Below are positions 35,880 through 55,200 of a stretch of DNA of 64,000 nucleotides, piece after piece. The notes beneath the pieces are model-generated. The model made no database searches. It was not told the DNA's origin and worked only from the letters and a program-made list of their open reading frames with translations. How positions within the stretch are numbered: position 1 is the stretch's first letter; each line of letters begins with the position of its first letter. A program made the translations under genes and the position numbers. This DNA comes from Ferrovibrio terrae (lineage in GTDB: Bacteria; Pseudomonadota; Alphaproteobacteria; Ferrovibrionales; Ferrovibrionaceae), in assembly GCF_007197755.1 (NCBI RefSeq), contig NZ_CP041636.1, positions 620,001-684,000 on the forward strand, written 5' to 3'.

Positions 35880-36653
35880 ATGCACTCCCCGACGCTGCGA
35901 GACATGACGCGTTTTGCTGCCTATGCCGCTTTCGCGGATGTGGACGCCAGCATCCGCCGCACTCTGCTCGGACCGCTCTGGTCGACTATGGGCCTCGCCC
36001 TGGTCATCCTCTGCCTGGGCCTGTTCTTTGGTACCGTGCTGAAGCAGCAGTTGCCCGATTTCGAAATCTATATCCCTTTCCTGGCGGCCGGCCTGATCGC
36101 CTGGACCTTCCTGGCCCAGTGCCTGCACCAGAGCGCCAGCCTGGTGTGGAGCTTCCTGAACACGTTACGCCATAACCGGATTCCCCTGCTCGTTCCGGTC
36201 CTGCGGGTCATCCTCCGGAATGTCCTGGTCCTGGCGCTCAATATCGTGACGGCGCTGATTGCCGCCTGGATATATTCCGGCAGTGTCGCGGTGCAGGCTT
36301 GGCCGCTGGCCCTGGGATTGATCCTGTTCGTCGCCAATACCTTCTGGATCAGCTACCTGGCGGCGTTGGCCAGCGCGCGCTTCCGCGACCTGCCCCAACT
36401 GATCGCCTGGGCCATCCACCTCGCGTTCTTCCTGACGCCGATCCTGTGGGTCGAATACAATCTCGGCCGCTTCGAATACTTAGTATCTTTCAATCCCTTC
36501 GCCTGGTTGATTGCGTTGGTGCGCCAACCACTGCTGGGTCAGCCGGTCACCGTGGATGTCTGGCTCGCAGCAACGGCTCTGGCGGCAGTTGGCAGCGCAG
36601 TCTGTCTATGGCTGACTCATCGCACCGCCAAACGGCTGCCGTACTGGATCTAG
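35880..36653 (+). CDS. wzm: ABC-2 type polysaccharide export permease
   Basis: The 257-residue protein has six hydrophobic segments and the typical N-terminal amphipathic start (YAAFADVDASIRRTLLGPLWSTM) of the ABC-2 permeases that export capsule or O-antigen chains (Wzm, KpsM). LTPILWVEYNLGRF and FNPFAWLIALVRQPLLG are the usual late motifs. It is followed after three bases by an ATPase gene, as expected. The symbol reflects the family and not a proven substrate. A second permease of this family is at 49090-49881. Confidence 0.87.
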   Translation: MHSPTLRDMTRFAAYAAFADVDASIRRTLLGPLWSTMGLALVILCLGLFFGTVLKQQLPDFEIYIPFLAAGLIAWTFLAQCLHQSASLVWSFLNTLRHNRIPLLVPVLRVILRNVLVLALNIVTALIAAWIYSGSVAVQAWPLALGLILFVANTFWISYLAALASARFRDLPQLIAWAIHLAFFLTPILWVEYNLGRFEYLVSFNPFAWLIALVRQPLLGQPVTVDVWLAATALAAVGSAVCLWLTHRTAKRLPYWI

Positions 36654-36656
36654 AGG

Positions 36657-37400
36657 ATGGCCGAACTCCTTCTGCACGGTGTCAGCGTCGACTTCCCGCT
36701 CTTCTTTGCGGGCGACCGGTCCTTCAAATGGAACCTCTTCAGCTGGATGTCCCGCCGCACTGCCGACCGGCATCGTTCCACCGTGACGGCGCTGACCGAT
36801 ATCTCGCTCAGAGTGAGCGGTGGCATGCGGCTGGCGCTGCTGGGCGGTAATGCGGCTGGCAAAACCACGCTCCTCAGGGTTATGGGCGGTCTGCTAACGC
36901 CCTCCAGAGGGGAGTTGGCGCTGACTGGCCGCCCGATCAGCGTGCTGGGGACCGGCATTGGCATCGATCCCGGCTTCACTGCCCGGCAAACCCTGATCGG
37001 TCAGGGCCTTCTCATGGGCTTTTCGCCAGCCGATTGTCGCAGCCGTATGGAACGAGCCACCGAATTCGGCGAATTGGCCGACATCCTCGACCAGCCCCTG
37101 CATACCCTGGCGCAGGGGCACCAGGTCCGGCTCGGCCTGAGCATCGCCGTCGCCTACGACGCGGAAATTCTGCTGATCGATGAAATGCTGGAACATTTGC
37201 CGCCCGCAGTGGTCGAGCGGCTTTGCCACTACATCGATCACGGCATGTCGCCCGGGTCGATCGTCGTGCTGGCCGAAAGGTCCAAACCGTTGCTCGAACG
37301 TATCTGCACAACAGCCCTTGTTCTGCATCAGGGCCGCCTTATCGACCAGGGACCGCTGACCGAGATTGCCGCACGGCACCAGGCGCAGATGATCGGCTGA
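36657..37400 (+). CDS. ABC exporter ATP-binding protein with eroded motifs
   Basis: The 247-residue protein has a good Walker A (GGNAAGKT, 63-70) and Walker B with the catalytic glutamate (ILLIDE, 171-176). Its signature region reads LAQGH (151-155), not the YSSGM form of polysaccharide exporters, and the switch histidine is replaced by glutamate (VVLAERS, Glu207). It also lacks the C-terminal carbohydrate-binding domain of long Wzt proteins. It is expected to drive the permease encoded just upstream, but the missing histidine and odd signature suggest reduced or altered ATP hydrolysis. It might act with another ATPase subunit or with a regulatory function. Confidence 0.8.
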   Translation: MAELLLHGVSVDFPLFFAGDRSFKWNLFSWMSRRTADRHRSTVTALTDISLRVSGGMRLALLGGNAAGKTTLLRVMGGLLTPSRGELALTGRPISVLGTGIGIDPGFTARQTLIGQGLLMGFSPADCRSRMERATEFGELADILDQPLHTLAQGHQVRLGLSIAVAYDAEILLIDEMLEHLPPAVVERLCHYIDHGMSPGSIVVLAERSKPLLERICTTALVLHQGRLIDQGPLTEIAARHQAQMIG

Positions 37401-40305: not shown

Positions 40306-41307
40306 TCATCGGTTCTGCAGGCCCTCCGGCTCGTACACCACGATCCGGCTGCCCGCTGTATCGATACCGAATTTGACTTCGATCAGCTTTGGCAATGCCT
40401 GCCGCACCGCCTCCTGCCGGCCCGGCGGCACATAGAACAGCATGAAGCCGCCCCCGCCGGCGCCCAGCAGCTTGCCGCCGAGTGCACCAGCCGCCATACC
40501 GGCGTCGTAAATCTGATCGAGATCACGATTGGTGATACTGTCGGCTAAACCCCGTTTCAATTGCCATGATTGATGCAGAAGCCGGCCGATATCGTCGAAA
40601 TCGCTCTGGCTGGCCAGAATCCCAACCGCCTGATCGACCAACTCAACCATCTGCCGCACCTGTGCCGCCTTCGCATCAAGGGACGCAATTTTCTTCGCAG
40701 CTACCTCGGAGGCGATGCGCGAAAATCCGGTGAAGAACAGCATTAGACTTCCGAGCAGTTCATCACGGCGATCCCGCGTCATCACGAGGGGAAGCACGCT
40801 GAAGCTTTCGTCAGGTGCAAAATTGATCCTGCCAAAACCACCGAAAGCAGCCCAAACCTGATCCTGCGAACCGACATTCTCCTGAATGACATTCTGCTCG
40901 ATGCGAATAGCTTCCTGCGCCAGATGGCTCTTGGAAATGATTCGACCAGACAGCGCATAAAGTGCGTTCAGTAACCCGACGGTGAAAGACGAACTCGATC
41001 CCAGGCCTGATCGCGCCGGCAGATCGCCGTCATGATGTATTTCCATGCCACGTTCGATCCCCATGTCCAGCAAGACATTGCGCACGGCTGGGTGCTGGAT
41101 TTCATTGACCTCATGAACTGTCTCGACTTTCGAATAAACCACGCGGTGCCGATGCTCGAAGAAAGGGGGCAGTTCGCGCAGCGAAATATAGCAATATTTA
41201 TCGATAGCAAATCCCAGCACGCTGCCGCCATGCTGACGATACCAATGTGGATAATCGGACCCGCCGCCAAAAAGCGAGATTCGGAATGGCGTACGGCTAA
41301 TAATCAC
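40306..41307 (-). CDS. hddA: D-glycero-D-manno-heptose 7-phosphate kinase (GHMP family)
   Basis: The 333-residue protein starts with MIISRTPFRISLFGGGSDYP, the HddA-specific opening of the GHMP kinases, and has PARSGLGSSSSFTVGLL as the ATP-binding loop. The family phosphorylates heptose 7-phosphate at C1 on the way to GDP-D-glycero-alpha-D-manno-heptose. The next gene upstream encodes a matching nucleotidyltransferase whose end overlaps it by four bases. GmhA (sedoheptulose 7-phosphate isomerase) and GmhB (phosphatase) are not in the window and may lie elsewhere. Similar fucose kinases of the same fold are the main alternative. Confidence 0.87.
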   Translation of the reverse strand: MIISRTPFRISLFGGGSDYPHWYRQHGGSVLGFAIDKYCYISLRELPPFFEHRHRVVYSKVETVHEVNEIQHPAVRNVLLDMGIERGMEIHHDGDLPARSGLGSSSSFTVGLLNALYALSGRIISKSHLAQEAIRIEQNVIQENVGSQDQVWAAFGGFGRINFAPDESFSVLPLVMTRDRRDELLGSLMLFFTGFSRIASEVAAKKIASLDAKAAQVRQMVELVDQAVGILASQSDFDDIGRLLHQSWQLKRGLADSITNRDLDQIYDAGMAAGALGGKLLGAGGGGFMLFYVPPGRQEAVRQALPKLIEVKFGIDTAGSRIVVYEPEGLQNR

Positions 41308-42050
41308 ACTGCTCTCCCAAACATGGCCTGTCTGACAACGCTTCCGGCGATCGCAAGGCTTTCAGGCGTGCCGATATCTATGAACGGCCCTGACGCACGA
41401 AACGCGTGCAGAGTCCGGGGGGGGAGTTTCTCGAGAAAATCTCTCTCCAGCGAAATCGCCGTGCCGGCCGACAGTTGGTCCAGCAATTGATCAGACAGCA
41501 GATACACCCCGCCGTTCACCATCCCACCGCCATGATGCGTCGCGTCTTTCTCAAGAAAGGCCGTGATGCGCTCTTCGTGGTTAATGTCTAACCGACCGTA
41601 ACGACCAGCATCGTCTACTTCGACATAGACCAGCGTTCCCGCCATAACTTGCGGGTCGAAGGAAGCGGCCAGCCGCGGCAGGTCGAAGCCCAACCAGGTA
41701 TCGCCATTGACGACAAGAAGGCGGTCCCCGCGTAGCCGGGATCGGGCATAACGCAGAGCTCCACCGGTTCCGAGCGGATGCGGCTCAACAATGCAGTCCA
41801 CCGAGAGCGCTGGCTTGCAGACCTTCAGATGTGACAGGACGCTATCCGCCATATGACCGAGACAGAGCAGAACCCGTTCCACTCCGGCCAGCGCAAATGC
41901 ATCAAGCAGATGATCAAGAAAAGCCCGGCCAGCGACAGGGGCGAGTATCTTCGGCCGGTCATCAAGCACACCACGCAGCCGGGTTCCCAATCCGCCGGCC
42001 AGTACAGCGACATTGAGGCCGGCCAGCACGGCCGGCTTGACTGCAGACAT
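41304..42050 (-). CDS. hddC: Sugar-1-phosphate nucleotidyltransferase (HddC-like)
   Basis: The 248-residue protein carries the nucleotidyltransferase motif AVLAGGLGTRLRGVLDDRPKIL, with ADSVLSHL and LLVVNGDTWLGFDL (metal-binding aspartate) following. With HddA next to it, GTP-dependent activation of heptose 1-phosphate to GDP-heptose is the best assignment. A different sugar-phosphate (for example mannose 1-phosphate) cannot be excluded because the nucleotide base is not predictable from sequence. Its start shares one base with the stop of the upstream radical-SAM gene. Confidence 0.84.
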   Translation of the reverse strand: MSAVKPAVLAGLNVAVLAGGLGTRLRGVLDDRPKILAPVAGRAFLDHLLDAFALAGVERVLLCLGHMADSVLSHLKVCKPALSVDCIVEPHPLGTGGALRYARSRLRGDRLLVVNGDTWLGFDLPRLAASFDPQVMAGTLVYVEVDDAGRYGRLDINHEERITAFLEKDATHHGGGMVNGGVYLLSDQLLDQLSAGTAISLERDFLEKLPPRTLHAFRASGPFIDIGTPESLAIAGSVVRQAMFGRAV

Positions 42051-43576
42051 CAGGCTGCCTTCTCCACACCCTCAAGCAGTTTGCGGCGCAGGCGATGGCT
42101 CGCCATTTCTTCAATATGATGTCGGGTATCCCAGCCGAAGCGCTGTGTTACCATGTCGAGATAACGGGGATGTGCAAAGTAGGCATGGAAGGCCTCATCG
42201 CGAAAATGCAGCACCTCTGCCGCGGAGACCTTCTCGGTAGGCAGCGGCTGGCAGTCGTAGGAATGCTGCGAGAAACCTGACCAGTTTTCCGGCAACGCCC
42301 AACCGTTCGTCACCGCCTGGTGATAGAGCTGGGAACCAGGATAGGCCATAGCCGAATAGAAGTTGGCGAATTCGCAATTCAACTCTTGGGCCAGTTCAAG
42401 CGTTTCGCGCATCGTGGCCACATCATCATCGGGAAGGCCGAAGATAAAGTTGCCGATGACACTAATGCCGGCCGACTGGATCTGTCGCACGATGTTGATG
42501 ATGTCCTCATGGCGCAACGCCTTCTGCGCGCCATCGCGCACATGCTTTGAGCCGGACTCTATGCCCAGCGCCAGCCAGCGGAAACCTGCCTTGCGCAGCT
42601 TTTCCAGCATATGCGGCTTGACGGTATCGACACGGGCATAAGCCCAGATGTTCAGCTCGAACTTGCGCTCGATCAGCAGATCGCAGATTGCCGTCACATG
42701 ACGTTCATTCAGCACGAACATCTCGTCGACGAATTTATAGGTCTTCACGCCGTAAGTGTCATGCAGATGTGCAATTTCGGCAACCACGTGCTCCGGCTTG
42801 CGCATGCGGTACCGGTTGGTATCGAAAGGTGCATTGATGCAGCAGAAGGTGCATTTATAGGGGCAGCCTAGCGAGGTGTAGATCGAGGCATAGGGCTTGC
42901 GCGACTCCAGGTCACCAAAGCACTGCCAGTTATGCGCCCGGTATTTCTCCATCGGCAGCATGTCCCAGACATTGCCGTGCAGATCGGCGTCCAGATCCTT
43001 GATCAGTTCCGCCGGCTTGTTGATCATGATCTTGTCGTCCGAATACCAGACTAGGCCAGGAACAGTGGAAAGATCTGCTTCATCACCGAGCTTGAGCTGT
43101 TCGATCAGGGCCACCACCGTATCCGGCCCCTCGCCCTTGCAGACGTAGTCAACCGGCTCTTCGGCCAATGTCCGCTCGGGCAAAGCGGAGACATGGCCGC
43201 CAACGATCAGGATCGGCATATCCGGAACAATCACCTTGATCGCTTCGCAGGCATCCCGCGCGCCCACCATCTGCTGGGTCGAGGCCGATGGCTGATGGCC
43301 GAACACCACCATGCAGGTAAGGCGAGGATTCAGTTCACGCACCTGCTCAGCCACCCGCTCCGGCCCCATCTCTTCTGCCTCAGAATCCAGAATGCGGATG
43401 GCATAGCCGCGATCACGGGCATAACCGGCAATCAGGCGGCACCACAGGGGCGGCTCGATGGCCGTCAGGGTGCCTCCCAGATTCTGGTAAATCTTGTCAC
43501 GCCCGCCGGGATTGATCAGAAGCAGATCAAGATGTTCGGACGGAGCCGTATTCGCCAATGCCATTGTCTTTTCCAT
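42050..43576 (-). CDS. Cobalamin-binding-domain radical-SAM protein
   Basis: The 508-residue protein has an N-terminal cobalamin-binding-like domain (about residues 15-165, with LLLINPGG, VVFGHQPSA and LIVGGHVSALPE) and a radical-SAM domain with CxxxCxxC at Cys238, Cys242 and Cys245 (GCPYKCTFC). The canonical DxHxxG cobalamin ligand is not seen, as in several B12 radical-SAM methylases. Such enzymes methylate unactivated carbons or phosphorus or rearrange carbon skeletons. It lies between the nucleotidyltransferase gene and the epimerase gene of the heptose/deoxy-sugar unit, so C-methylation of a sugar is an attractive idea. The start may be 43576 or 43564. Confidence 0.82.
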   Translation of the reverse strand: MEKTMALANTAPSEHLDLLLINPGGRDKIYQNLGGTLTAIEPPLWCRLIAGYARDRGYAIRILDSEAEEMGPERVAEQVRELNPRLTCMVVFGHQPSASTQQMVGARDACEAIKVIVPDMPILIVGGHVSALPERTLAEEPVDYVCKGEGPDTVVALIEQLKLGDEADLSTVPGLVWYSDDKIMINKPAELIKDLDADLHGNVWDMLPMEKYRAHNWQCFGDLESRKPYASIYTSLGCPYKCTFCCINAPFDTNRYRMRKPEHVVAEIAHLHDTYGVKTYKFVDEMFVLNERHVTAICDLLIERKFELNIWAYARVDTVKPHMLEKLRKAGFRWLALGIESGSKHVRDGAQKALRHEDIINIVRQIQSAGISVIGNFIFGLPDDDVATMRETLELAQELNCEFANFYSAMAYPGSQLYHQAVTNGWALPENWSGFSQHSYDCQPLPTEKVSAAEVLHFRDEAFHAYFAHPRYLDMVTQRFGWDTRHHIEEMASHRLRRKLLEGVEKAA

Positions 43577-43675
43577 ATTACCGCGAGGGTACAGCCCTCA
43601 ACGCCACACGCGGACGTATATACTAGCGCCCGCCCCCGGAGCCGACAATCCCGGTTTTGGCCGTCGCGAAATACC

Positions 43676-44617
43676 TTAAACGTTGCCGTACAGGCTGTTG
43701 CGGATCATGCGATAGCCCTTGATCAGCTCCTGAATCCCGGCATCCAGGCTGAAAGCGGGCTGGAAGCCAGTGGCCTCGATCTTGGCATTCGAAACGATAT
43801 AATCGCGCTTGTCCGGGTCTTCGCCGACGGGTGCCTCGGGGAAGACGAAGGCCGGCAGATGCCGCTTGATGCGCTCGCACAGCTCCTGCTTGGACAGATT
43901 GGCGTCGGACAGACCGACGTTATAAGCCTGATCGCGCATCGTCTCGAAATTGCTCATGCCGTGCAGGAAGGCGCGGGTGACATCGCGCACATGGATGAAA
44001 TTCCGCTTGAAATGCGGCTCGAACAGAACCACGGCACGGTCGAAAACGGCGCGATAGACGAAATCATTGACCAGCAGGTCCAGGCGCAGGCGCGGCGCCA
44101 TACCGAACACAGTCGCCAGCCGGAAGCTGATGGCATTGCCGCGCTCCAGTGCTGCCTGTTCGGCCTCGACCTTAGTGCGGCCATAGAGTGAGATTGGCCG
44201 CAATGGCGTCTCTTCGGTGCAGAACTTGTCCTTCTCGCCGATGCCGTAGCCCGAATTGGTGATCGGCATCAGGATACGCTGATCCTTCGACAGGTTGCGC
44301 GTCAGCGTCACCACGGCGTCGCGATTGATACCGATAGCGCCGGGCTGATCTATACTGCACAGCGGAGCGCCGACCAACGCAGCCAGAGGAATCACGTAGT
44401 CCGCGTTCTTGATCAAAGGCCTGAGCACGGCTTCGTCGCGCGCATCGCCGCGCTGCACATCGAAATCGGGGTTGACGCACAGGTGATTCAGCGGCGACTG
44501 CCTGAACATGAAGTTGTCCAAAACGGTGACGCGATAGCCCGCATTCAGCAGTTCGGGCACCATGATGGAGCCGAGATATCCGGCACCACCGGTAACGAGG
44601 ACAGAAGGTTTTGCCAT
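43676..44617 (-). CDS. NAD-dependent epimerase/dehydratase (SDR) of the deoxy-sugar unit
   Basis: The 313-residue protein begins with VLVTGGAGYLGS (NAD loop). ITNSGYGIGEKDKF contains the residue equivalent to the catalytic serine/threonine, and SLYGRTKVEAE supplies the YxxxK pair. FKRNFIHVRDVTRAFLHG is the late conserved block of extended SDR sugar epimerases. It is placed between the radical-SAM gene and the ColD-like gene, so it could be the reductase or epimerase acting on the 4-keto sugar (the role of ColC or YerF in known pathways). Its exact reaction is unknown. Confidence 0.84.
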   Translation of the reverse strand: MAKPSVLVTGGAGYLGSIMVPELLNAGYRVTVLDNFMFRQSPLNHLCVNPDFDVQRGDARDEAVLRPLIKNADYVIPLAALVGAPLCSIDQPGAIGINRDAVVTLTRNLSKDQRILMPITNSGYGIGEKDKFCTEETPLRPISLYGRTKVEAEQAALERGNAISFRLATVFGMAPRLRLDLLVNDFVYRAVFDRAVVLFEPHFKRNFIHVRDVTRAFLHGMSNFETMRDQAYNVGLSDANLSKQELCERIKRHLPAFVFPEAPVGEDPDKRDYIVSNAKIEATGFQPAFSLDAGIQELIKGYRMIRNSLYGNV

Positions 44618-44635
44618 GGAGGTATACCCCGATGA

Positions 44636-45802
44636 TCAGGCGATGTTGTGCAGAGCGCTGTGCAAGCGCTCCAACTGCTGCGTCAAATCCTGCGGATGAT
44701 TGCCGACGAAGAAGCCACGATTATGAGCGATATCGGCGTTCGTCACATCACCGACGATCTCGTAGTCGTAATACTTCATCACGCTGTGCCGCAGGAAATT
44801 GCCGCCGGTGATGATGCGATAGCCGATATCGGCATCACGTAGCGCGCCGAACACCCGTTCGCGATCCGCATTGTGGGCCGGATTGAGAATTAGCGTGAAA
44901 GAGAAGGCCGAGCTCTTGCCGTTCTCGCGCTGGATGATGAACCGCTCATCCTTGCCGAACAGCTCCTGGAACAAAGCCCAGTTCTTGCGGCGCTGCGCGG
45001 TCATCGCCGGCAATTTCTTGATCTGCTCGCGACCGATGGCGCCAGACAGTTCCAGCGGGCGTACATTGTAGCCCGGCAGGATGAAGTTATATGCCTCGTA
45101 GAACTCACTGCCCTTGCGGTCGAAAATTTTCGTGTCCGGCGGCAGATCACGGGTCCAGCCATGCGCACGGATCGACCGGCACAGATGCGCCAGCTCCGTG
45201 TCGTCGGTCAGGATCATCCCACCTTCCATCGTGGAGATATGGTGGGAGAAGAAGAAGCTAAAGGTATTCAGATGGCCGAAGGTGCCGGTGAACTTGCCGT
45301 TCAGCGTTGCATCCATAGACTCACAGTTGTCTTCCAGCAGATAGAGGCCATGCGCATCGGCAAAGGCCCGCATGACGTCCAGCGCAGCGGGATTACCCAG
45401 GATGCTGACGGCAACGATAGCGCGGGTGCGCGGCGTCAAAGCCTGCTCCAGCTTGCTGACATCGACATTCAGTGTCTGTAAGTCAATGTCGATGAAACGC
45501 AACTTCAAGCCATACTGCTGCAACGGATGGTATGTGGTCGCCCAGGAAATCGCCGGCACAATCACTTCATCGCCACGCTGCAATGGGCGGTCCTGCTTGT
45601 AGAACAGGGCGGCGGTAGAAACCAGATTCGCGGAGGAGCCGGAATTCACCATGACACCGTGCTTCATGCCGAAATAATCGGCGAATTCACGCTCCAGCGC
45701 TCTCACATTCTCGCCCATCGTGAAATAGCCGCTGGCGATAACGCGCTGCATCGCATCGAGTTCTTCCTGACCCCAGGACGATGCCGCCAATTCGTAAAAC
45801 AT
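44636..45802 (-). CDS. colD: ColD-like PLP-dependent sugar 3-dehydratase
   Basis: The 388-residue protein has the DegT/DnrJ aminotransferase fold, but the usual PLP-binding lysine is replaced by histidine: FSFFFSHHISTMEGG puts His188 at that place. GDP-4-keto-6-deoxymannose 3-dehydratase (ColD) has the same length and His188, and RfbH/E1 enzymes have the equivalent histidine. These enzymes remove the C3 hydroxyl, using glutamate to form PMP, instead of transferring an amino group. SGSSANLVSTAAL (PLP phosphate site) and LLEDNCESMDA (aspartate to the pyridine) are present. It should make a 3-deoxy-4-keto sugar nucleotide, probably GDP-linked given hddC and the fcl-like gene. Confidence 0.88.
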   Translation of the reverse strand: MFYELAASSWGQEELDAMQRVIASGYFTMGENVRALEREFADYFGMKHGVMVNSGSSANLVSTAALFYKQDRPLQRGDEVIVPAISWATTYHPLQQYGLKLRFIDIDLQTLNVDVSKLEQALTPRTRAIVAVSILGNPAALDVMRAFADAHGLYLLEDNCESMDATLNGKFTGTFGHLNTFSFFFSHHISTMEGGMILTDDTELAHLCRSIRAHGWTRDLPPDTKIFDRKGSEFYEAYNFILPGYNVRPLELSGAIGREQIKKLPAMTAQRRKNWALFQELFGKDERFIIQRENGKSSAFSFTLILNPAHNADRERVFGALRDADIGYRIITGGNFLRHSVMKYYDYEIVGDVTNADIAHNRGFFVGNHPQDLTQQLERLHSALHNIA

Positions 45803-45829
45803 ATGAAGTTGTATCCTGTTCTTGGAAGA

Positions 45830-46888
45830 TCAGAAGGGGCCGCGGAACTGCACTTGGTAGGCCAGCCTGGCCAATTCGGGCGACGGCTCCCATGCAGCAG
45901 CATCCGGACGAACCATGGCATGTGCCGCCGATGCGATCGTTGCCGGATTCGGATAGAAAAGCTGTTCCAGCGTCGGCGACGTCGGGCAGGTGGTCGGCGC
46001 AAACCCCATACGCTGCACGATGGCACCACGGGTCGCGCGCGCTTCGGCAACCCGCGCCAGGATTTCTGCACTGGCACCGCACATGGTCCAGCCGTTGTCG
46101 ACGACCAGCAGCCTGCCGGTACGCGCCACCGACTGGACGACGGTCTCGCTATCCAACGGCGAAAGTGTAATCGGGTCGATCACTTCGGCATGGATGCCCT
46201 GCTCCTTCAGCAGTTCCTGTGCACGCAGACATTCCACCAGCATGTTTGAAATGCCGACGATGGTCAGGTCAGTGCCGGTCTGCACCACGCGCGCTTTGCC
46301 CAGCTCGACCGTATACGGTTGCTCCGGCACATAGGCCTCCAGCCCGTAGAGCAGACGGTGTTCCATGAAGATCACGGGGTTGTCGTCACGGATCGCTGCG
46401 ATCAGACAGCCTTTCGCGTCATGGGCGTTGCTCGGAGCAACAACCTTGAGACCAGGCACATGCATAAACATCGCATGCAAGCCCTGACTATGCTGCGCAC
46501 CCTGCCCCCAGGACTTACCAATCATGCAACGCACCACTAGCGGCACCTTCACAGCTCCGCCGTACATATAATGTGATTTTGCCGCCATATTGACGAGCTG
46601 GTTCATGCCCAGCATCAGAAAGTCCATACGGATATGCACATGGATCGGCCGCATGCCGGCCATCGCCGCACCGATTGCGACGCCGGTCATGGCATCTTCC
46701 GACAGCGGCGTAGTGAATACCCGGTCGGCACCAAAGCGCTGCAGGAGGCCGCGCGTAGAGCCCTGGATTGCCTTGTGGTCGTCGACGTCCAGTCCCATCA
46801 CGAAGACAGATGGATCGCGATCCATCTCCAGCGCGACCGCTTCGGCGAGCGCATCGACATATCGCAGCAGGCGTTCAGGCGTAGACAT
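45830..46888 (-). CDS. TPP-dependent 2-oxoacid dehydrogenase E1 component, beta subunit-like
   Basis: From the ATG at 46888, which overlaps the alpha gene by 14 bases, the protein has 352 residues. It matches E1-beta/transketolase pyrimidine-binding domains: VFTTPLSEDAMTGVAIGAAMAGMRP contains the glutamate that activates thiamine, and VKVVAPSN-like (here LKVVAPSNAHDAKG) plus LLVVDNGWTMCGASAEI follow. Together with the alpha subunit it should form an alpha2beta2 carboligase/decarboxylase. No E2 or E3 gene with lipoyl or FAD motifs lies nearby, so it may not be a classic dehydrogenase complex. Its position directly beside a 3-dehydratase points to sugar branching. Confidence 0.85.
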   Translation of the reverse strand: MSTPERLLRYVDALAEAVALEMDRDPSVFVMGLDVDDHKAIQGSTRGLLQRFGADRVFTTPLSEDAMTGVAIGAAMAGMRPIHVHIRMDFLMLGMNQLVNMAAKSHYMYGGAVKVPLVVRCMIGKSWGQGAQHSQGLHAMFMHVPGLKVVAPSNAHDAKGCLIAAIRDDNPVIFMEHRLLYGLEAYVPEQPYTVELGKARVVQTGTDLTIVGISNMLVECLRAQELLKEQGIHAEVIDPITLSPLDSETVVQSVARTGRLLVVDNGWTMCGASAEILARVAEARATRGAIVQRMGFAPTTCPTSPTLEQLFYPNPATIASAAHAMVRPDAAAWEPSPELARLAYQVQFRGPF

Positions 46889-47876
46889 TGGCGTATAGCT
46901 CTTCAGCAGGCGGGAAAGCGGAGCTTTCAGCAAAATCGACGGCATCAGCGATCACGGCTTCGACTTCGGCATCGATGCCGGCCCGCTCGGCAGCCGGCAG
47001 CATGTTGCCGACACGCGCAACCTGATCATTGGCCATCCACGCCTCGGCTTCCGAACGCGGACGATAGCCCTGGTCGAAATCCTCGGCGGGGCCGACATGT
47101 TCGCGCCAGCGATAAAGCTTGCACTCGATAAAGGTCGGCCCTTCGCCGCGCCGCATACGTTCCACCGCCTGGGCAGCGGCCTCGCGCATGGCAAAAACAT
47201 CACCATCGGGAATCTGCACCACCGGCATGCCGAAAGCCGCCACACGGGCGCAGATGTCTTCGCTGGACCAGCGCTTCGACAGCGGCTCATGAATGGCATA
47301 GCCGTTGTTTTCGCAGACAAACAGCACCGGCAGGCGATGCAACATTGCGAAGTTCAGGCTTTCGTAGAAACAGCCCTCTTCGGTGGCGCCATCTCCGAAG
47401 AAGACGGCACAGACCCGGCCCTTGCCTTCACGCTTGAGCATCAGGCCCTGACCGGTCGCGATCGGGATATTGGTCCCGACCACAGCCGAAGAACCCAGCA
47501 CATTGGCTTCGGGTGAGATGATATGCATCGAGCCGCCCTTGCCGCGGCAGCACCCCGTCACCTTGCCATACATCTCCGCCATCATCGCGGCGACGTTGCC
47601 GCCCTTAGCGAGATAGACCGCGTGGCTGCGATAGGTTCCGGAGGCGACATCTTCAGGCTTCAGTACGTCACAGACGGCGGCAGAGCTTGCTTCCTGGCCG
47701 ATGGCCAGATGAACGGGACTCTTGATCTTGTCCGAAGGATAGATGCGCGCCGTCTCTTCTTCGACGCGGCGAATGAGACGCAGCTTGCGATACAGGGCAG
47801 CGAGTTGGGATGACGACAAGCCATGCCCGGCATGCTCATGCTCGGGCGATGCTGTGTTACGCGGATCAGCCGCCAT
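46875..47876 (-). CDS. TPP-dependent 2-oxoacid dehydrogenase E1 component, alpha subunit-like
   Basis: The 333-residue protein is the alpha partner. The TPP/magnesium motif GDGATEEGCFYESLNFA ... ENNGYAI (GDG followed by NN after about 26 residues) is intact, and CRGKGGSMHI and SSAVVGTNIPIATG are the usual E1-alpha blocks. The family decarboxylates pyruvate or another 2-oxoacid to an enamine that attacks an acceptor. Here it heads the 47876-38494 minus-strand unit and its end overlaps the beta gene by 14 bases. An AGGA box is nine bases before the ATG. The gene for the plus-strand GT2 starts in the opposite direction ~85 bp away. Confidence 0.86.
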   Translation of the reverse strand: MAADPRNTASPEHEHAGHGLSSSQLAALYRKLRLIRRVEEETARIYPSDKIKSPVHLAIGQEASSAAVCDVLKPEDVASGTYRSHAVYLAKGGNVAAMMAEMYGKVTGCCRGKGGSMHIISPEANVLGSSAVVGTNIPIATGQGLMLKREGKGRVCAVFFGDGATEEGCFYESLNFAMLHRLPVLFVCENNGYAIHEPLSKRWSSEDICARVAAFGMPVVQIPDGDVFAMREAAAQAVERMRRGEGPTFIECKLYRWREHVGPAEDFDQGYRPRSEAEAWMANDQVARVGNMLPAAERAGIDAEVEAVIADAVDFAESSAFPPAEELYANVYA

Positions 47877-47959: not shown

Positions 47960-49054
47960 GTGCAGTCGCAAGCCTTTCAATCCATTCTCTCCGTGCCCAA
48001 TATCCGCATCTGCAGCGGTCCGCTGACCGCGGCAGATGGGTTGGCCACTCTTCCGTCCTCGACCGCGACCTGGCCGAGAATCACCCTGATTACCCCGACG
48101 CTGAATCGCCTGTCATTCCTTAGAGACCTTATAAAGAACATACAGGATCAGGGCTACAGCAACCTGGAACATATCGTGGTTGACGGAGGCTCGACCGACG
48201 GCACTGCCGAATACGTGGCGCAGCAAGGCCATATCACTTTCATTCCAGGACCGGACCGCAACTCCCACCATGCCATGAACAAGGGCATTGCGGCAGCGAC
48301 AGGGGAAGTGGTGGGTTTTGCCAATACTGATGACCGGCTGCCGCCAGGCGCTCTGGCCAATGTCGGCGCCTATTTCGCCATGCCGCAGGCAAGCGATGTG
48401 CTGAATGGCCGCTGCTTCCTGGTCCCGCTGGAGAATCCGCAGGACAGTCAGTCACCCGCTTTCGAGCTACAGCATATGTCAGGCGAGCGCGGCCTGTTCG
48501 ACGAACTTATGTTCGGTGCCCCAGGCTTCAATTCGTGGTTTTTCCGCCGCAGCCTGCTGACGCGTGACGACCTGATGGCCGGTCCGGGCCAGACTTTCGA
48601 TGAAAGCCTGATCATTGCGGCTGACCGGGCATGGCTGCTCCGGCTGTTCCTTACCGGCCACCGGCCACACCGGCTGATGGTGCCCACCTATATTTACCAG
48701 CTGCACAGCGCCTCGGCGACACTGGATCCTGCCGCGCAGCAGGCGGATGGCATCCTGACCGAACACCGGCGTCTGGCTATCCATCTTCTGCCTCTAGCTC
48801 GCCGCCAGCCCCCCGGCCACGCACATGCCCTATCGGACTGGATCGCCCACGAATCCTGGCAACTGCTGCGTCGCCATCTGCGCAGCGGCCGTGTGGCCGC
48901 TGCGATCGACCTGCTGATTCGGTCCATCGGGCAGAACCCGGCCTTTCCGCTCTCCCTACTGCGCGCCCGCCGCCGCCGCCGCCGGCTGGCCGCCCTTGCC
49001 GCCGCCCTGCCGGAGAGCGGCAGCAACGTGGACAGCCAAGCCGCAGCTGCCTAA
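47960..49054 (+). CDS. Glycosyltransferase family 2
   Basis: The protein shows RITLITPTLNRLSFLRDLI, HIVVDGGSTDGTAEYV (nucleotide-binding aspartate) and VVGFANTDDRLPPGALA (DxD-like metal site), characteristic of GT2 enzymes that take glycan acceptors. The start is uncertain. An ATG at 47810 would overlap the divergent E1-alpha gene by 67 bp, so the GTG at 47960 is preferred (364 residues). The C-terminal end is rich in arginine (RARRRRRRLAAL). It opens the plus-strand unit that continues with the Wzm/Wzt-type exporter. Confidence 0.82.
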   Translation: MQSQAFQSILSVPNIRICSGPLTAADGLATLPSSTATWPRITLITPTLNRLSFLRDLIKNIQDQGYSNLEHIVVDGGSTDGTAEYVAQQGHITFIPGPDRNSHHAMNKGIAAATGEVVGFANTDDRLPPGALANVGAYFAMPQASDVLNGRCFLVPLENPQDSQSPAFELQHMSGERGLFDELMFGAPGFNSWFFRRSLLTRDDLMAGPGQTFDESLIIAADRAWLLRLFLTGHRPHRLMVPTYIYQLHSASATLDPAAQQADGILTEHRRLAIHLLPLARRQPPGHAHALSDWIAHESWQLLRRHLRSGRVAAAIDLLIRSIGQNPAFPLSLLRARRRRRRLAALAAALPESGSNVDSQAAAA

Positions 49055-49089
49055 TTTGGTCACTGACCATAACTGCCGGATTCGCAGGC

Positions 49090-49881
49090 ATGTTTTCTTA
49101 TAGTCGGACTATTCTGCATTCCCGTCGGGTAATCCTGGCGCTGGCGCGACAGGCCCTCCTGTCCCGCTTCGCCGGTACCGGTGCCGGCATGCTGTGGACA
49201 GTGTTTCAGCCTCTGGCCATGGTGGCTGCCTACTGGCTGGTTTTCACCTATGGCTTCCGTGTCACCGCACCGGACGGCCAGCCGTTTGCCGTCTATTTCG
49301 TCACCGGCCTGCTGCCTTGGACCTTCCTGTCAGAGGCGCTGGCGGCTGCGACTGGCACGGTCACCCGCAACAGTTTCCTGGTGCGCAAAATTCAGTTCCC
49401 CAGCGAAGTCCTGCCGCTGGTCGAAATCCTCGGCGCCAGTTTCCCGCATGTGATTTTCTTCGTGCTGACGCTGTTGGTGCTGCTGGGACATGGCATCCTG
49501 CCCGGCATCTGGATCTGGCAACTGCTCTATGCATATTTCGCACTGGCCGCCTTCGCCCTGGGGCTTGGCCTGGCTCTGAGTGCGTTCAATGTTTTCCATC
49601 GCGACGTGGCCCAATCCATCACGCCGGTCCTGAACGTGTGGTTCTGGCTTACCCCCATCGTATGGAGCCTGGACATGCTGCCGCCGACATGGCGCAGTCT
49701 GGCAGCCCTCAACCCGATGACGCATATTGTGGAGGCCTACCGCGCGGCGCTGCTTTACGGCCATCCCGTCTGGCAGCCTACGTTGCATGTCATTGCTTTC
49801 TGGCTGATCACCCTGACACTGCTTTTCTGTGGATATCGCAGCTTCATGCGCCTGAAGAGCGAGTTCGCCGATGTTGTGTGA
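49090..49881 (+). CDS. wzm: ABC-2 type polysaccharide export permease (Wzm-like)
   Basis: From the ATG at 49090 the protein has 263 residues with six membrane spans. QALLSRFAGTGAGMLWTVFQPLAM is the N-terminal amphipathic motif, FLVRKIQFPSEVLPLVEIL the cytoplasmic loop, and WLTPIVWSLDMLPP and LNPMTHIVEAYRAALLYG the late conserved parts of Wzm/KpsM permeases. The open frame extends upstream to 48631 but runs inside the preceding GT2 gene and is low-complexity. It is followed after nine bases by the ATPase gene, so the pair should form one exporter. The substrate is probably a polymer or lipid-linked glycan with a terminal modification read by the partner ATPase. Confidence 0.88.
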   Translation: MFSYSRTILHSRRVILALARQALLSRFAGTGAGMLWTVFQPLAMVAAYWLVFTYGFRVTAPDGQPFAVYFVTGLLPWTFLSEALAAATGTVTRNSFLVRKIQFPSEVLPLVEILGASFPHVIFFVLTLLVLLGHGILPGIWIWQLLYAYFALAAFALGLGLALSAFNVFHRDVAQSITPVLNVWFWLTPIVWSLDMLPPTWRSLAALNPMTHIVEAYRAALLYGHPVWQPTLHVIAFWLITLTLLFCGYRSFMRLKSEFADVV

Positions 49882-49890
49882 CGGCATCCG

Positions 49891-51225
49891 ATGAGCAATC
49901 CCGCGATCCAGATTCGGAACCTGGCCAAGAAATTCCGGCTTTACGACACGCCGGGCCAGCGTCTGCGCGAGGCGCTGCATCCGTTCCGTCGCACGCTACA
50001 TCGCGAATTCTGGGCCTTGCGGGACGTTTCCTTCGAAGTGGAAAAAGGCACCACGCTGGGAATCCTGGGCCGCAACGGTTCAGGTAAGTCAACCCTGCTG
50101 AAGGTCATCGCCGGCGTCATGCAGCCCAGCCAGGGCGAGGTACTCACTCATGGTCGCGTCGCCGCACTGCTGGAGCTCGGCGCTGGCTTCAACCCGGATC
50201 TGACCGGTCGTCAGAATGCCGTCTTGCAGCTGCAGATCGCCAACGAGGATTCGGCGCGGATAGCCACCAAGCTGGAGGAGATCGAGCAGTTCGCCGATAT
50301 CGGTGACTTCTTCGACCAACCCGTGCGGGTCTATTCCTCGGGCATGTTCGTCCGCGTCGCCTTTGCCGCCGCCATCAGCGTCGAGCCAGACATCCTGATC
50401 GTCGACGAGGCTCTGGCCGTCGGTGACGCGAAGTTTCAGCAGAAATGTTATGAGCGGCTCAGGGCCATGCGTGATCACGGCATGACTATATTAATTGCAT
50501 CGCATGACACACAGTCGATCATACGCATGTGCGATCGCGCCATTGTTCTCGAGGGCAGCCGTCTGTACACCATCGGGACACCGCGCGCCGCCGCCGATGA
50601 GTATTTCGCACTGATGTTCGGCCGCAAGAACATCACGGTGGTGCAAAAGGAAGCCGCCGGTCGCAATACGACAACGGAAGCGTACGACTTTCAGAGTTTT
50701 GCGGAAGCTTCCTCACACTCTACGGGCGTCGAGGACAGGCCACACTACAATAAAGATGAATTCCGTTACGGCCCTCGCACTGTAGAGGTGATCGACTATC
50801 TGCTGACCGCAGATGGCATATCCTATCCACCCAGCATCAATGACGGCGCCACTGCTTCGCTCGCGATCAAACTAAGATCTACGGCCGATATAAGCGATCT
50901 CATGTGCGGGATCGGCATCAAGACACTCGACGGCACGTTGCTTTATGGCATCAACTCATCCATGCAGGACGGGCATTACTTCAGCCTGATGGCAGGCGAG
51001 GTCACAACCGTCCGCTTCGACTTGCATTTCGCACTAAATTCAGGCGAATATTTCATTGATATCGGCTGTGGTCAGAGGACATCCCAGGGAGTAGAGGCTC
51101 TGGACCGCAGAAATGCTGCAATCCATATCAAGGTAATCAGTTCGCAGAGATTCGACGGCTCGGTGAATCTCAGGGGCAGCTCGCACCAAATTACTCATCC
51201 CGCACCCAGAACGATTCCCGAGTAA
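49891..51225 (+). CDS. wzt: Wzt-like ABC ATPase with C-terminal carbohydrate-binding domain
   Basis: The 444-residue protein has all ATPase motifs intact: Walker A GRNGSGKS (60-67), the signature YSSGM (148-152) typical of polysaccharide exporters, Walker B ILIVDEA (168-174) and switch histidine His205. Beyond residue ~240 it continues with a ~200-residue beta-rich segment (RYGPRTVEVIDYLLTADG ... IDIGCGQRT) matching Wzt_C. That domain, in O9a-type systems, binds the terminal modification of the O-polysaccharide before export. A sulfotransferase and a radical-SAM gene follow directly, so they may make the structure it recognises. Confidence 0.9.
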   Translation: MSNPAIQIRNLAKKFRLYDTPGQRLREALHPFRRTLHREFWALRDVSFEVEKGTTLGILGRNGSGKSTLLKVIAGVMQPSQGEVLTHGRVAALLELGAGFNPDLTGRQNAVLQLQIANEDSARIATKLEEIEQFADIGDFFDQPVRVYSSGMFVRVAFAAAISVEPDILIVDEALAVGDAKFQQKCYERLRAMRDHGMTILIASHDTQSIIRMCDRAIVLEGSRLYTIGTPRAAADEYFALMFGRKNITVVQKEAAGRNTTTEAYDFQSFAEASSHSTGVEDRPHYNKDEFRYGPRTVEVIDYLLTADGISYPPSINDGATASLAIKLRSTADISDLMCGIGIKTLDGTLLYGINSSMQDGHYFSLMAGEVTTVRFDLHFALNSGEYFIDIGCGQRTSQGVEALDRRNAAIHIKVISSQRFDGSVNLRGSSHQITHPAPRTIPE

Positions 51226-51239
51226 AGGACAGGCCTTCC

Positions 51240-53369
51240 ATGACCGGGGCTCGCCTAGAATTCTTTGATACTGACGATGATCTGACAGCCAAGGCCGCAG
51301 CCCAATGGCCCGCGGGTTGCGAAATCCTTCTTGATGGCAGCGACGCCGAGAAGGCAATCACATTGGCAGGCCTGCTGCAGGCCAGGCACTATACTGTCGC
51401 CGTCACACCTGCCCTCGCCGCGCACGGTGCCGGCAGTATCGGCAAGGCCCGGTCGCCGCACGCCAGCGATCACGTGATTGTTGTTGCGGCAAGCGGCACT
51501 GCTGTAACGCACGCGCTCTGGGCCTATCGCGAACTTTCTGACCTGAAGGTTTTTGCGCCGCGATCCGACCACTTTTGGGACCGCCGCTTCTTCTTCGTCA
51601 TCTGCCCGCCCAAGACCGGCGGCCATATGCTGATGAATTTCCTTGGCCGCATCGGTTTCAAACCCCATCTGCCGATCTCGGGAATGCTTTCGGACGGTCG
51701 TATATATTATGCCAACGGCATCGACCAGCATGCTGAATTTTCCCTCGACCCCTATCATGCACCTGATTACCGGATGCAGGCCTTGGCAAGTACCGTATGC
51801 CTGTTTCTTGTACGGGATCCGCGTGACGTCGCCGTCTCACTCGCACATTTCCTGCACGCCCCGCCGCAGCAGTTCCACGACAATAAGAATCTTCCTCCGC
51901 TGTACAGTTCGTGGCACCCATATTTTTCCACCATGCCGGACCAGTATGAACGCCTTCTGCGCGTCATAGAAGGTGGCGACGGGTGGCCGGACTTGAAACA
52001 CTTCCTGGCCCCGTTCGAACCTTGGTCCAGTCAGCCCAACACCGTCATGCTTCGTTATGAAGATCTTGTCGGGGAAGCTGGTGGCGGTACCACCGAACGC
52101 CAGCAGATGGCTGTCTGGCAGTTCCAACTCGCCTGCCACTTCCCGGGCACCACAGCCTCTCTCTGTCAGAAGCTCTACGATACCGGTTCCGCCACATACC
52201 GGGCCGGACGGATCGGGTCCCATCTCGAAGAGTTCCAGCAAGCACATATAGATGCCTATCGAAAACTTGCTCCTTCGCCATTTACCGCGGATGGTTACGG
52301 GCGGAAGGCAACGCTGCTGAAGCCATTCCGCCTTGCATTGCCTTCGTATGCCTTTGCAATGCGCCTGACGAATGCCGTCCGGACCCGGCTAGCCTTGGAT
52401 GTCGCAGGTGACGTTGTCTGTGACATTGATGGCGATATCGCCGTCATCTGCCAGATGGCTGGGGATTCATCAAAGAGAATTGAAGTTGCTTCACCGTCGC
52501 CCATACAGGCTGCCCACAACAGTCTACCAAAGGCGGTTGAGCAGATCACAACCTTCCTTGAAGAAAATGGTTTCCTGCTTTATTCACAGACGAAAACAGC
52601 CAGACAGGAAACAATAGTTCTGTCTGCACCGACTGCAGCGGTGCAATACGCGAGACCAACGCCGATTTCCCGGAACGATGAATATAATATTATCGGCTAT
52701 GGCAACGCGTATCTGGCCATTGCGGCTTCACTGGGCGATATCGATATCACGGCACTGGGGACAGGATATTTCCGCAAGCTTATCGGCAGCCGGCTGATCG
52801 TTCAGGCTGACAGCCTCAATACTCTGTTATCCGAACTGCGGATCGACCTTCCCGTCGCACATCCGGAACGGGAAGCACCAAAGCAATTGGAAGTTCCCAA
52901 GGTCATTGAGAGTGACACTTTCGGCTTCAACCTGGTTTCATATAATGAAAAGATTCTTGCCGTCGCGTTGCGGGCTGGTGACATCGACCTGCGCGACCTC
53001 GGCGTGCGTCAGAAACTGACCCGAGATTCCCTTCTGTTCAGCTTCAGTAGCCTTTCCGAAGCCCGGGAAATCCTGCGACTGCGCCACCAGGTAGATCGGC
53101 TCACCGCCGTCATGAACCATCTTGTCGCAGCAACAACCGATACACTGCCGCCGCATGCCAATGCACCCAAGCTCCTTATAGAAAACTACAAAGGCTTCAA
53201 TCTGGTGGCCCTGGGGCAAGAAGTCTTTGCCGTATCGACGGCGGCCGGGCCGACCAATCTGACGGATCAGGCGGAACGGACAGCCCTGCAGGCCAGCAAA
53301 CGGCTGTTTACCGCCCCCAATCTTTCTGCCGCTTTCAGTGCTGTAGATCGCGCAACAACCAAACTATAA
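51240..53369 (+). CDS. Sulfotransferase with C-terminal repeat modules
   Basis: The 709-residue protein has a PAPS-dependent sulfotransferase domain at about residues 115-345: CPPKTGGHML (122-131) is the 5'-phosphosulfate loop, LVRDPRDVAVSLAHF (190-204) the 3'-phosphate motif and LRYEDL (271-276) the usual third block. After it come three copies of a ~55-residue module (480-530, 557-612, 647-702) with the core N-[LI]-[VI]-x6-[FIL]-x-A-[VI]...G-[DP]-x-[DN]-[LI], plus a degenerate copy near 387-440. It likely sulfates a glycan in the cytoplasm, and the repeats may dock it to the exporter, the glycan or its neighbours. The first ~115 residues are unassigned. Confidence 0.8.
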   Translation: MTGARLEFFDTDDDLTAKAAAQWPAGCEILLDGSDAEKAITLAGLLQARHYTVAVTPALAAHGAGSIGKARSPHASDHVIVVAASGTAVTHALWAYRELSDLKVFAPRSDHFWDRRFFFVICPPKTGGHMLMNFLGRIGFKPHLPISGMLSDGRIYYANGIDQHAEFSLDPYHAPDYRMQALASTVCLFLVRDPRDVAVSLAHFLHAPPQQFHDNKNLPPLYSSWHPYFSTMPDQYERLLRVIEGGDGWPDLKHFLAPFEPWSSQPNTVMLRYEDLVGEAGGGTTERQQMAVWQFQLACHFPGTTASLCQKLYDTGSATYRAGRIGSHLEEFQQAHIDAYRKLAPSPFTADGYGRKATLLKPFRLALPSYAFAMRLTNAVRTRLALDVAGDVVCDIDGDIAVICQMAGDSSKRIEVASPSPIQAAHNSLPKAVEQITTFLEENGFLLYSQTKTARQETIVLSAPTAAVQYARPTPISRNDEYNIIGYGNAYLAIAASLGDIDITALGTGYFRKLIGSRLIVQADSLNTLLSELRIDLPVAHPEREAPKQLEVPKVIESDTFGFNLVSYNEKILAVALRAGDIDLRDLGVRQKLTRDSLLFSFSSLSEAREILRLRHQVDRLTAVMNHLVAATTDTLPPHANAPKLLIENYKGFNLVALGQEVFAVSTAAGPTNLTDQAERTALQASKRLFTAPNLSAAFSAVDRATTKL
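52677..53345 (+). repeat. Three tandem ~55-residue protein modules
   Basis: The encoded copies at residues 480-530 (EYNIIGYGNAYLAIAASLGDI), 557-612 (FGFNLVSYNEKILAVALRAGD) and 647-702 (KGFNLVALGQEVFAVSTAAGP) share the same order of conserved residues and end in a SLxEA-like helix. Two further copies are encoded in the next gene near 53485-53637 and 54985-55155. The DNA has diverged, so this is an old protein-level repeat. Confidence 0.75.
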
Positions 53370-53382
53370 ACTACGGCCAGTT

Positions 53383-55200
53383 GTGAAATTTACTGCCCCT
53401 ACCGGCCCGATGGATTACAGTCGCGTCATGCAGCAATCTGCCAGCCCCATCGCGATGCAGGACTTGCCAGAGCTTGTTGGCGACCACCGGTCGTACAACC
53501 TCGTCCGGCTTGGCAGCCGCTTTGCCGCCGTGCCGCAGGCTTTGGGCCCGGTCGACCTGGCCGAACCGACGGCGCGCATCAACCCGTATGTATTGTGGGC
53601 AGACGATGAAGCCTCGGCACGCCAGGCCATTGATCGCGATGGTGCCTGGAAGCATTTCGATCCGCTGTACTCAGTCACCCCTCTGGATGCCTTCGGGATT
53701 CCCGAGGTTATCGAAATCGAGCCGATCCACACCTGCAACCTGCGCTGCATCATGTGCCATGTCAGCTATGAGCGGATCACCAAGAAACGACTGGATATCG
53801 GCTTCCTGAAGAACCTTCAGGGCCTGCAGGGAAAATGGGCAAAGCTCGGCCATCTTTATGAACCTGTCGCCCATCCCCAGTTTGCCGAAATCGTCCATGG
53901 CCTGACCGATCTGGGCATGGACATCGACTTGGTGACCAACGGCACCTTGTTCACCGATGCCCTGATCGAGAAAATTTCCGACTGCAATTTCCGGAACGTG
54001 ACCATCTCATTTGACGGGGCCCGCGCCACCACTTACGAGCGGATCAGGCAACGCGGAAACTTCCGGCAGGCCGTCGACCGCATTCTGGCATTCAAAAAAG
54101 CCATCCTGGCGCGCCGGCCGGATACCTATTTCCAGATCAACTACACCGTTCTCCGATCGAATATCGATGAAATCGTCGAAGCAATGGAATTCTGGGACGC
54201 ACATGGTTTCGACCATATCGGTTTCATCAACATGGTGATCCGCGACGAGGCCGAGATCCTGAAACAGGAAGCGGTTCAGCCGGCACTGGATTCCCTCGAG
54301 GCCGCTCTGGATGCAGCAACGCGTCTGGTGATCGACGAAAAGCGGCGCATCACGCTGTCCGCACCCTATTTCCGGCACAGCCATCTGCGTACGGAATTCG
54401 CCGGTAACTTTCCGCAGCCCGGCGTGGTGATGTCGGATAATCCGCATGCACGTCTGCCCGTCACTCCATCCACACATTTTCAGAACGGCCCGTATCCTGG
54501 AATGCAGGTTGACTGCCGCTCGCCCTTCAAATTTGCTCGCATAAATTATGATGGCGATGTGCTGCTCTGCCATCAGTTCTCGGTCGGGAATATCCTGAAG
54601 GCACCTCTGCTCGAACTCTGGCAGAATGCGACCGCCGATTACGTGCGCAGCATGGTAAAGGGTGACGTTTCCGTCTGTGAGGCCTGCGAGTATTTCCGCT
54701 TCTGCATCCAGGCCAACGATGTCGATTCCCGACGTGACTTCGTGTCGAACAATGCCATCCGGATTCTGAAGGAAAGCTGGCCCTACAATTTCCTTACCTG
54801 GAGCGGCCAGTATTATGCCGCGCCCCAATGGCTACGCCTGACGGCCACGGATCTGGCTGATCGCCAACGGCATGGCACACTCGGCATCGTTCTCGCAGAC
54901 AGTCAGGAAGATGCCGAGGCAGCGGTGGCTGATGTCTTTCCGCCACTTGACCACAGTCCACCACCTTTCTGGAAAATAGAAGAATATCGCGACCACAATC
55001 TTTTCGCCTGCCATGACCGGCTCGTTGCCATCCCCGTATCGCTCGGGCCACTCAATGTCCGGAAAATGTACGGATTCACCCTCGATTTCCGCTACTGGCC
55101 GTATCAGCGCCATGCGATTATCGGATCGTCGATCGTGAAGGTGAAACGCCTGATCGACAAAAAGGCGAAGCTCGGACTGCCAGCACCGCGCTGGCGTTGA
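53383..55200 (+). CDS. SPASM-type radical-SAM protein with flanking repeat modules
   Basis: The 605-residue protein (GTG start at 53383; ATGs at 53410 and 53428 are alternatives) has a radical-SAM cluster at Cys118, Cys122 and Cys125 (HTCNLRCIMCH), and a C-terminal SPASM-like cysteine cluster (DCRSPF, LLCHQFSVGNI, CEACEYFRFC). Repeat modules like those of the sulfotransferase lie at each end (about 35-85, SYNLVRLGSRFAAVPQALGP, and 535-591, HNLFACHDRLVAIPVSLGP). The shared modules and adjacency suggest that the two work together on one substrate. Family members modify peptides, glycans or lipids; the substrate here is unknown. Confidence 0.83.
   Translation: MKFTAPTGPMDYSRVMQQSASPIAMQDLPELVGDHRSYNLVRLGSRFAAVPQALGPVDLAEPTARINPYVLWADDEASARQAIDRDGAWKHFDPLYSVTPLDAFGIPEVIEIEPIHTCNLRCIMCHVSYERITKKRLDIGFLKNLQGLQGKWAKLGHLYEPVAHPQFAEIVHGLTDLGMDIDLVTNGTLFTDALIEKISDCNFRNVTISFDGARATTYERIRQRGNFRQAVDRILAFKKAILARRPDTYFQINYTVLRSNIDEIVEAMEFWDAHGFDHIGFINMVIRDEAEILKQEAVQPALDSLEAALDAATRLVIDEKRRITLSAPYFRHSHLRTEFAGNFPQPGVVMSDNPHARLPVTPSTHFQNGPYPGMQVDCRSPFKFARINYDGDVLLCHQFSVGNILKAPLLELWQNATADYVRSMVKGDVSVCEACEYFRFCIQANDVDSRRDFVSNNAIRILKESWPYNFLTWSGQYYAAPQWLRLTATDLADRQRHGTLGIVLADSQEDAEAAVADVFPPLDHSPPPFWKIEEYRDHNLFACHDRLVAIPVSLGPLNVRKMYGFTLDFRYWPYQRHAIIGSSIVKVKRLIDKKAKLGLPAPRWR

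Follow-up and report, generated by a model that had tools for sequence, protein, structure and literature searches.

A small repeated domain shared by enzymes of different chemistry and exporter ATPases at bacterial glycan loci

Carbohydrate-binding modules, known mostly from extracellular hydrolases, have described folds and ligands. They are small, fold independently, are often repeated, and are appended to catalytic domains of varied chemistry. Here, we report a protein module with the same traits, encoded in a 64,000-nucleotide stretch of Ferrovibrio terrae DNA (contig NZ_CP041636.1, positions 620,001 to 684,000; hereafter the window). Two adjacent, complete reading frames on the plus strand encode a predicted sulfotransferase, ST1 (51240-53369, 709 residues), and a radical S-adenosylmethionine (SAM) protein, RSAM (53383-55200, 605 residues), and both carry the module in several copies. 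Unlike carbohydrate-binding modules, none of the 34 copies that we compared matches a Pfam family above the chance level, and glycan binding is putative.

Two further comparisons come from polysaccharide export dependent on ATP-binding cassette (ABC) transporters. Exporter ATPases of the Wzt class have a known accessory domain that binds the glycan cap (PMC9445017). This domain, Wzt_C (PF14524), resembles the module described here in being non-catalytic, in belonging to cytosolic glycan assembly, and in being fused to an exporter ATPase (PMC9445017). However, Wzt_C is a jelly roll of ~140 residues at the C terminus of Wzt, whereas our module has about 57 residues, is predicted to fold as beta-beta-beta-helix-beta-helix, lies N-terminal on the ATPase and, unlike Wzt_C, is also found on many enzymes. 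In the WbdD/WbdA-type and Klebsiella O4 and O7 complexes, the enzymes that extend, modify and cap a lipid-linked chain are kept in contact at the membrane ahead of ABC export; these assemblies are reported to rely on interactions among polymerase components and on a terminator with a coiled-coil ruler (PMC3482155, PMC11231755). Our system differs from these in having a dispersed small globular domain common to many enzymes.

The module in ST1 and RSAM

A preliminary description of this locus, made from the sequence alone, had proposed that ST1 and RSAM share a repeated module. We excised the ~57-residue copies, aligned them and made them into profiles, and then ran profiles built from one protein on the other proteins and on 9000 shuffled sequences. 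With these leave-one-protein-out profiles, the best copy of nearly every protein pair outscored all 9000 shuffled controls. The RSAM-only profile detected the third ST1 copy at 15.2 bits, a score reached by 0 of the 9000 shuffles (best shuffle, 9.3 bits), and the ST1-only profile detected the N-terminal RSAM copy at 14.6 bits (best shuffle, 6.4 bits). The single exception was the RSAM-only profile on a second sulfotransferase of the same genome (8.9 bits, a score reached by 1 of 9000 shuffles). Since the scores lie above the shuffled controls, the likeness of the modules exceeds chance, and the shared module is real.

In ST1, the copies lie at 52656-52841 (residues 473-534; 45-49 bits by profile), 52896-53078 (residues 553-613; 40-48 bits) and 53166-53351 (residues 643-704; 38-46 bits), all on the plus strand. 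Three copies, perhaps four, had been suggested; the three stand, while the fourth is unsupported, as the 34-copy profile has no match in residues 371-474, where the full-length ST1 model is of low confidence. A decayed fourth copy in this region is possible, because sister sulfotransferases have a module directly behind the catalytic domain. RSAM had been thought to carry one copy at each end. Both ends do carry the module, and the total is three: an N-terminal copy, the best of all (53467-53637, residues 29-85; 70-74 bits), and two adjacent C-terminal ones, again on the plus strand. The first of the latter (54763-54936, about residues 462-516) scores 67 bits with a profile that includes it and 19-20 bits with profiles A3 and A4, which exclude it. 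The second (54964-55158, residues 528-592), whose C-terminal half is divergent, scores 22-27 bits with profiles A3 and A4, which exclude it as well, and 8.9-9.4 bits in the leave-one-out test, scores reached by 0-1 of 9000 shuffles.

The identities of the two enzymes agree with those first given. RSAM contains a radical-SAM domain (PF04055, E 6.5e-12, 46.4 bits against a cut-off of 29.5) with the CxxxCxxC motif CNLRCIMC, and a SPASM domain (E 2.9e-9, 37.5 bits against 21.5). ST1 consists of an N-terminal Rossmann-like region, a sulfotransferase core at about residues 115-355, and the C-terminal module array. Its match to Pfam Sulfotransfer_1 (E 0.0035, 17.2 bits) is below the cut-off of 22 bits. 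This cut-off is set by the database and does not reflect biochemistry, and the assignment was decided by fold and motifs. The sequence includes PKTGGHML, RDPRDVAVSLAHF and GRIGSH, of which the first two align with sister sequences as the 5'-phosphosulfate loop and 3'-phosphate motifs. The model of residues 115-357 superimposes on mouse SULT7A1 (Z 12.5, root-mean-square deviation (rmsd) 3.5, 204 residues aligned), and 50 of 50 among the structural matches listed are sulfotransferase-fold enzymes. By its predicted fold, ST1 is thus a member of a divergent subfamily of sulfotransferases that depend on 3'-phosphoadenosine-5'-phosphosulfate (PAPS).

The consensus of the 34 copies reads P-x-L-[VIL]-x(5)-[YFH]-N-[IL]-V-x-[YF]-x-G-x-[FY]-[YF]-[AG]-[VIL]-P-x-x-L-G-P-[VI]-D-L, followed by a variable loop and P-G-[VL]-[IL]-x-A-x-[ST]-x(3)-[VL]-x(3)-[IL]. 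Conservation falls on aromatic or hydrophobic residues and on Asn, Gly, Pro and Asp, and the profile shows no apparent catalytic His, Cys or Glu among its conserved positions. Tandem copies are frequent, up to four, and are joined by short linkers of 7-29 residues. We modeled the N-terminal RSAM copy alone with AlphaFold2, using a 30-row alignment from which five plasmid-record rows had been left out. It folded well (mean predicted local distance difference test score 94.2, predicted template modeling score 0.80), with strands at residues 4-9, 12-17 and 20-25, a short helix at 36-39, a strand at 45-47 and a helix at 50-60. The full-length ST1 model is of low confidence overall, owing to an alignment of only five rows; in it, the same order of elements appears in copy 2 and nearly so in copy 1 (strands 474-478, 482-487 and 490-495), while copy 3 is badly modelled. 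The module is therefore predicted to be an independently folding domain appended to catalytic domains, and its positions in ST1, the second sulfotransferase (ST2) and RSAM are terminal.

In searches against Pfam-A, NCBIfam and PHROGs, no family was hit by two or more of the 34 copies. Matches of single copies (LSM14, PRE_C2HC, YmfL and others) were dismissed as chance. Among PDB sequences, the best match had an E-value of 0.043, and a Foldseek search with the module model gave no match at E <= 0.001 (E above 1 for PDB entries and above 0.3 for viral models). The best VIA structural match was MmoD, the inhibitory subunit of methane monooxygenase (PDB 6d7k_H; Z 4.0, 52 residues, rmsd 3.8). We do not propose it as a relative: the Z-score is at the level expected for unrelated small folds, identity is 12%, and no context is shared. 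We found no description of such a module in the literature. Judged from the model, it has no convincing fold relative among PDB and viral models, which does not in itself prove a new fold. By sequence, it appears to be a new domain family, one that our searches did not find in Pfam, NCBIfam or PHROGs.

Carriers and their genomic setting

In the genome of the window, the module occurs at E <= 0.001 in ST1, RSAM and ST2, and nowhere else. ST2 has four copies and lies about 20 kb downstream of ST1, so that all three carriers fall within about 26 kb. Beyond this genome, its distribution is rare and patchy. Four genomes with the module were found in the window's order (18 genomes, one family), 3 in an even sample of 385 from the class Alphaproteobacteria and 3 in an even sample of 398 from the phylum, one module genome belonging to another class. 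Plasmids of Azospirillum lipoferum, A. ramasamyi and A. argentinense bear the module as well. Profile E-values against whole genomes reached 1e-21. Profile searches of nine genus relatives (G001-G009) detected no module, and a scan of genome contigs with RSAM peptide patterns returned one locus, apparently the contig of a metagenome-assembled genome already represented (G016:C12). The profile matches are at glycan loci, bar one marginal match in G409 (E 3.7e-4), which has an in-frame TGA and was taken as chance.

Sharing of the module across enzyme chemistries, first proposed for two proteins, extends to further enzyme classes. According to Pfam and homology, the carriers include two sulfotransferase types, SPASM radical-SAM proteins, glycosyltransferase-like proteins, a class I methyltransferase, and large B12-binding radical-SAM proteins with three copies each, besides an adenosine 5'-phosphosulfate (APS) kinase whose N-terminal half is sulfotransferase-like by motifs. 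The latter type is seen on A. lipoferum 4B plasmid AZO_p6 (locus L039, 14213-16831), where a sulfotransferase-like N-terminal half is followed by at least two modules and a C-terminal APS kinase; this protein may combine sulfate activation and transfer in one chain. Most sulfotransferases of the ST1 family have their first module at the same site after the core, and their copy number ranges from one to four. Carriers are commonly neighbours: three lie within 7.6 kb in G012, three are consecutive in G013, two are adjacent in G375 and G958, and on the Azospirillum plasmids two sit side by side or almost so. At the G375 locus (L033, 4758-8032), a gene with a PAPS-reductase domain and a CysN/APS-kinase gene directly adjoin two module-bearing sulfotransferases, an arrangement suggestive of local sulfate activation.

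The glycan and exporter context of the module was borne out too, as in two species the exporter itself bears it: the module lies N-terminal on an ABC ATPase of the polysaccharide-exporter type at loci L075 and L109. The module-ATPase of L075 is followed by an ABC-2 permease, and that of L109 by a frame with no Pfam match in the same place. These ATPases (L075, 5753-7078; L109, 7073-8176) have no Wzt_C match and carry one or two N-terminal modules, possibly a different way for an exporter to recognise its glycan.

The module is also linked to one sugar cassette, which in the window occupies 40306-47876 on the minus strand and encodes a GHMP kinase, a nucleotidyltransferase, a B12 radical-SAM protein, an epimerase, a DegT aminotransferase, E1-beta and E1-alpha. 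The first four genes were identified by Pfam and all seven by homology to the cassette of L109, whose genes follow the module-ATPase of that genome (G013) in an order matching that of the window but for an additional epimerase, at 48-79% identity. On the Azospirillum plasmids, most cassette genes surround the module carriers. All 10 module-positive genomes or records contain the B12 radical-SAM cassette gene, against 4 of 32 module-negative genomes (Fisher p 7e-7); within the order alone, the figures are 4 of 4 against 2 of 14 (p 0.005). The gene lies less than 10 kb from a module in 8 of the 10; in the remaining two, it is 31 kb away (G551, a 37% identical copy) or on another contig (G012). 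The cassette is probably a pathway to an unusual nucleotide sugar, branched or C-methylated.

Upstream of ST1, the window encodes an exporter ATPase, Wzt (49891-51225, plus strand; ABC_tran E 2.1e-23, Wzt_C E 1.2e-23), with a Wzt_C glycan-binding domain, and a Wzm-like exporter membrane subunit (49051-49881, plus strand). The latter occupies roughly the last 276 codons of the open frame 48631-49881 and has a 28% match to the ABC-2 permease beside the L075 module-ATPase. Downstream of RSAM, on the minus strand, lies the gene of a large glycosyltransferase-like protein, P0003 (55208-58309, 1033 residues), with a sub-threshold Glyco_trans_1_2 match and a middle part resembling tetratricopeptide repeats. 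The profile search found no module in P0003 or in the other proteins of the window. Relatives of P0003, about 32% identical, are encoded beside module carriers on three Azospirillum plasmids, and the protein probably belongs to the same system. A probable second exporter pair lies at 35880-37400, where an ABC ATPase gene (36657-37400) is preceded by a frame with no Pfam match (35880-36653).

A putative targeting role and its rivals

Small, independently folding domains that are repeated at the ends of differing enzymes of one pathway normally serve to bring each enzyme to a substrate or complex that all of them share. We infer, with confidence a little short of even, that the module is a non-catalytic targeting domain that binds glycan and thereby concentrates glycan-modifying enzymes on one lipid-linked polysaccharide. 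It would gather such enzymes in the cytosol, and in some species the exporter ATPase, onto the polymer before export. In the window, ST1 with its three beads and RSAM with one bead ahead and two behind would be tethered to the same chain during sulfation or other modification, beside the Wzm/Wzt exporter. The mode of action would be direct recognition of a feature of the glycan, as by carbohydrate-binding modules on other enzymes, and the ligand may be the unusual sugar from the neighbouring cassette or a polymer containing it. A more elaborate version, which we consider conceivable and rather doubt, is a portable address code, in which the beads on enzymes and exporter are each tuned to the step of their enzyme, coordinating sulfation, radical-SAM modification, methylation and export on one nascent chain with the unusual sugar made by the conserved E1/DegT/B12-radical-SAM cassette.

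A serious rival, possible if somewhat unlikely, is protein-protein docking, whereby the modules bind a common partner (the exporter, a glycosyltransferase or each other) and build a modification complex at the membrane while leaving the glycan uncontacted. The adjacency of carrier genes, the tandem copies and the fusion to an exporter ATPase all fit this explanation. It remains serious because multiprotein assembly of export-ready glycans is well established: O-polysaccharide in Klebsiella is reported to be assembled by multiprotein complexes with variably distributed modules (PMC11231755). However, a common partner predicts co-evolution within a genome. In a test that rests on 34 short sequences, modules were similar across genomes when they sat on one type of enzyme (p 0.016), and not similar across the different enzymes of a single genome (p 0.29); likewise, no homogenisation within a genome was seen among the 34 copies compared. 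A shared partner should leave a genome signal, and similarity that follows the host enzyme is thus mild evidence against docking modules being matched to one another in one cell. Moreover, we identified no conserved neighbour without a module that all loci share and that could be the partner, and the module sits on a class of ATPase whose known accessory domain binds the glycan cap. On this indirect evidence, glycan binding appears more likely than docking.

The same dependence on host enzyme and position would also be expected if the module packed on its own catalytic domain, as a substrate lid or for dimerisation or stability, with no recruitment. Its sharing would then be a legacy of ancient shuffling, inside these clusters, of a domain that is small and stable. 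The constant site after the core in most of the sulfotransferase family fits such packing, but the RSAM modules lie at opposite ends, copy number in the sulfotransferase family varies from one to four, linkers vary, and carriers are as different as an ABC ATPase, all of which makes it improbable. We consider it very unlikely that the modules are regulatory sensors of a pathway-wide small molecule or nucleotide. A small beta-alpha domain on carriers that use PAPS, SAM and nucleotide sugars might suit such a role, yet the profile has neither a glycine-rich loop nor a conserved basic residue for phosphate binding, and no one cofactor is common to all carriers. Finally, pairwise identities of only about 20-30% might suggest chance or convergent similarity of low-complexity hairpins. 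This is refuted by the leave-one-protein-out test against 9000 shuffles, and the whole-genome E-values and the high-confidence predicted fold leave it practically no probability.

Several observations weigh against glycan targeting as we propose it. The window's own Wzt has Wzt_C and lacks the module, and neither Foldseek, in the PDB and viral models, nor VIA found a fold relative with a known ligand. The modules are acidic, with a mean net charge of -2.3; they are therefore not generic binders of a sulfated chain, and binding of sulfated glycan through general positive charge is disfavoured. In the comparison that links module and cassette, module-negative genomes from beyond the order were chosen by hand, it was the module that led to the Azospirillum records, and the genomes, where related, do not count as independent. 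Lastly, G003, of the same genus as the window, has the cassette at 83-89% identity and no module detected in its genome. The sugar of the cassette therefore does not require the module, which is an optional layer on the cassette pathway.

Implications for glycan modification and export

Accessory targeting modules, the kind of function proposed here, are familiar; what appears to be new is the domain family itself and its occurrence on both enzymes and exporter. As judged from profile searches, the module is more widespread and varied than the first two proteins showed, and is tied to one type of glycan locus. If it targets enzymes to one polymer, its sequence could be used to trace other enzymes working on that glycan, and the module itself to direct new modifying enzymes to a polysaccharide of choice. 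Such targeting would also hint at how modification in the cytosol is kept in step with ABC export in systems other than the known capping ones. In environmental bacteria that have been little studied, and on Azospirillum plasmids, the module forms a link between sulfotransferases, radical-SAM proteins and a conserved sugar cassette.

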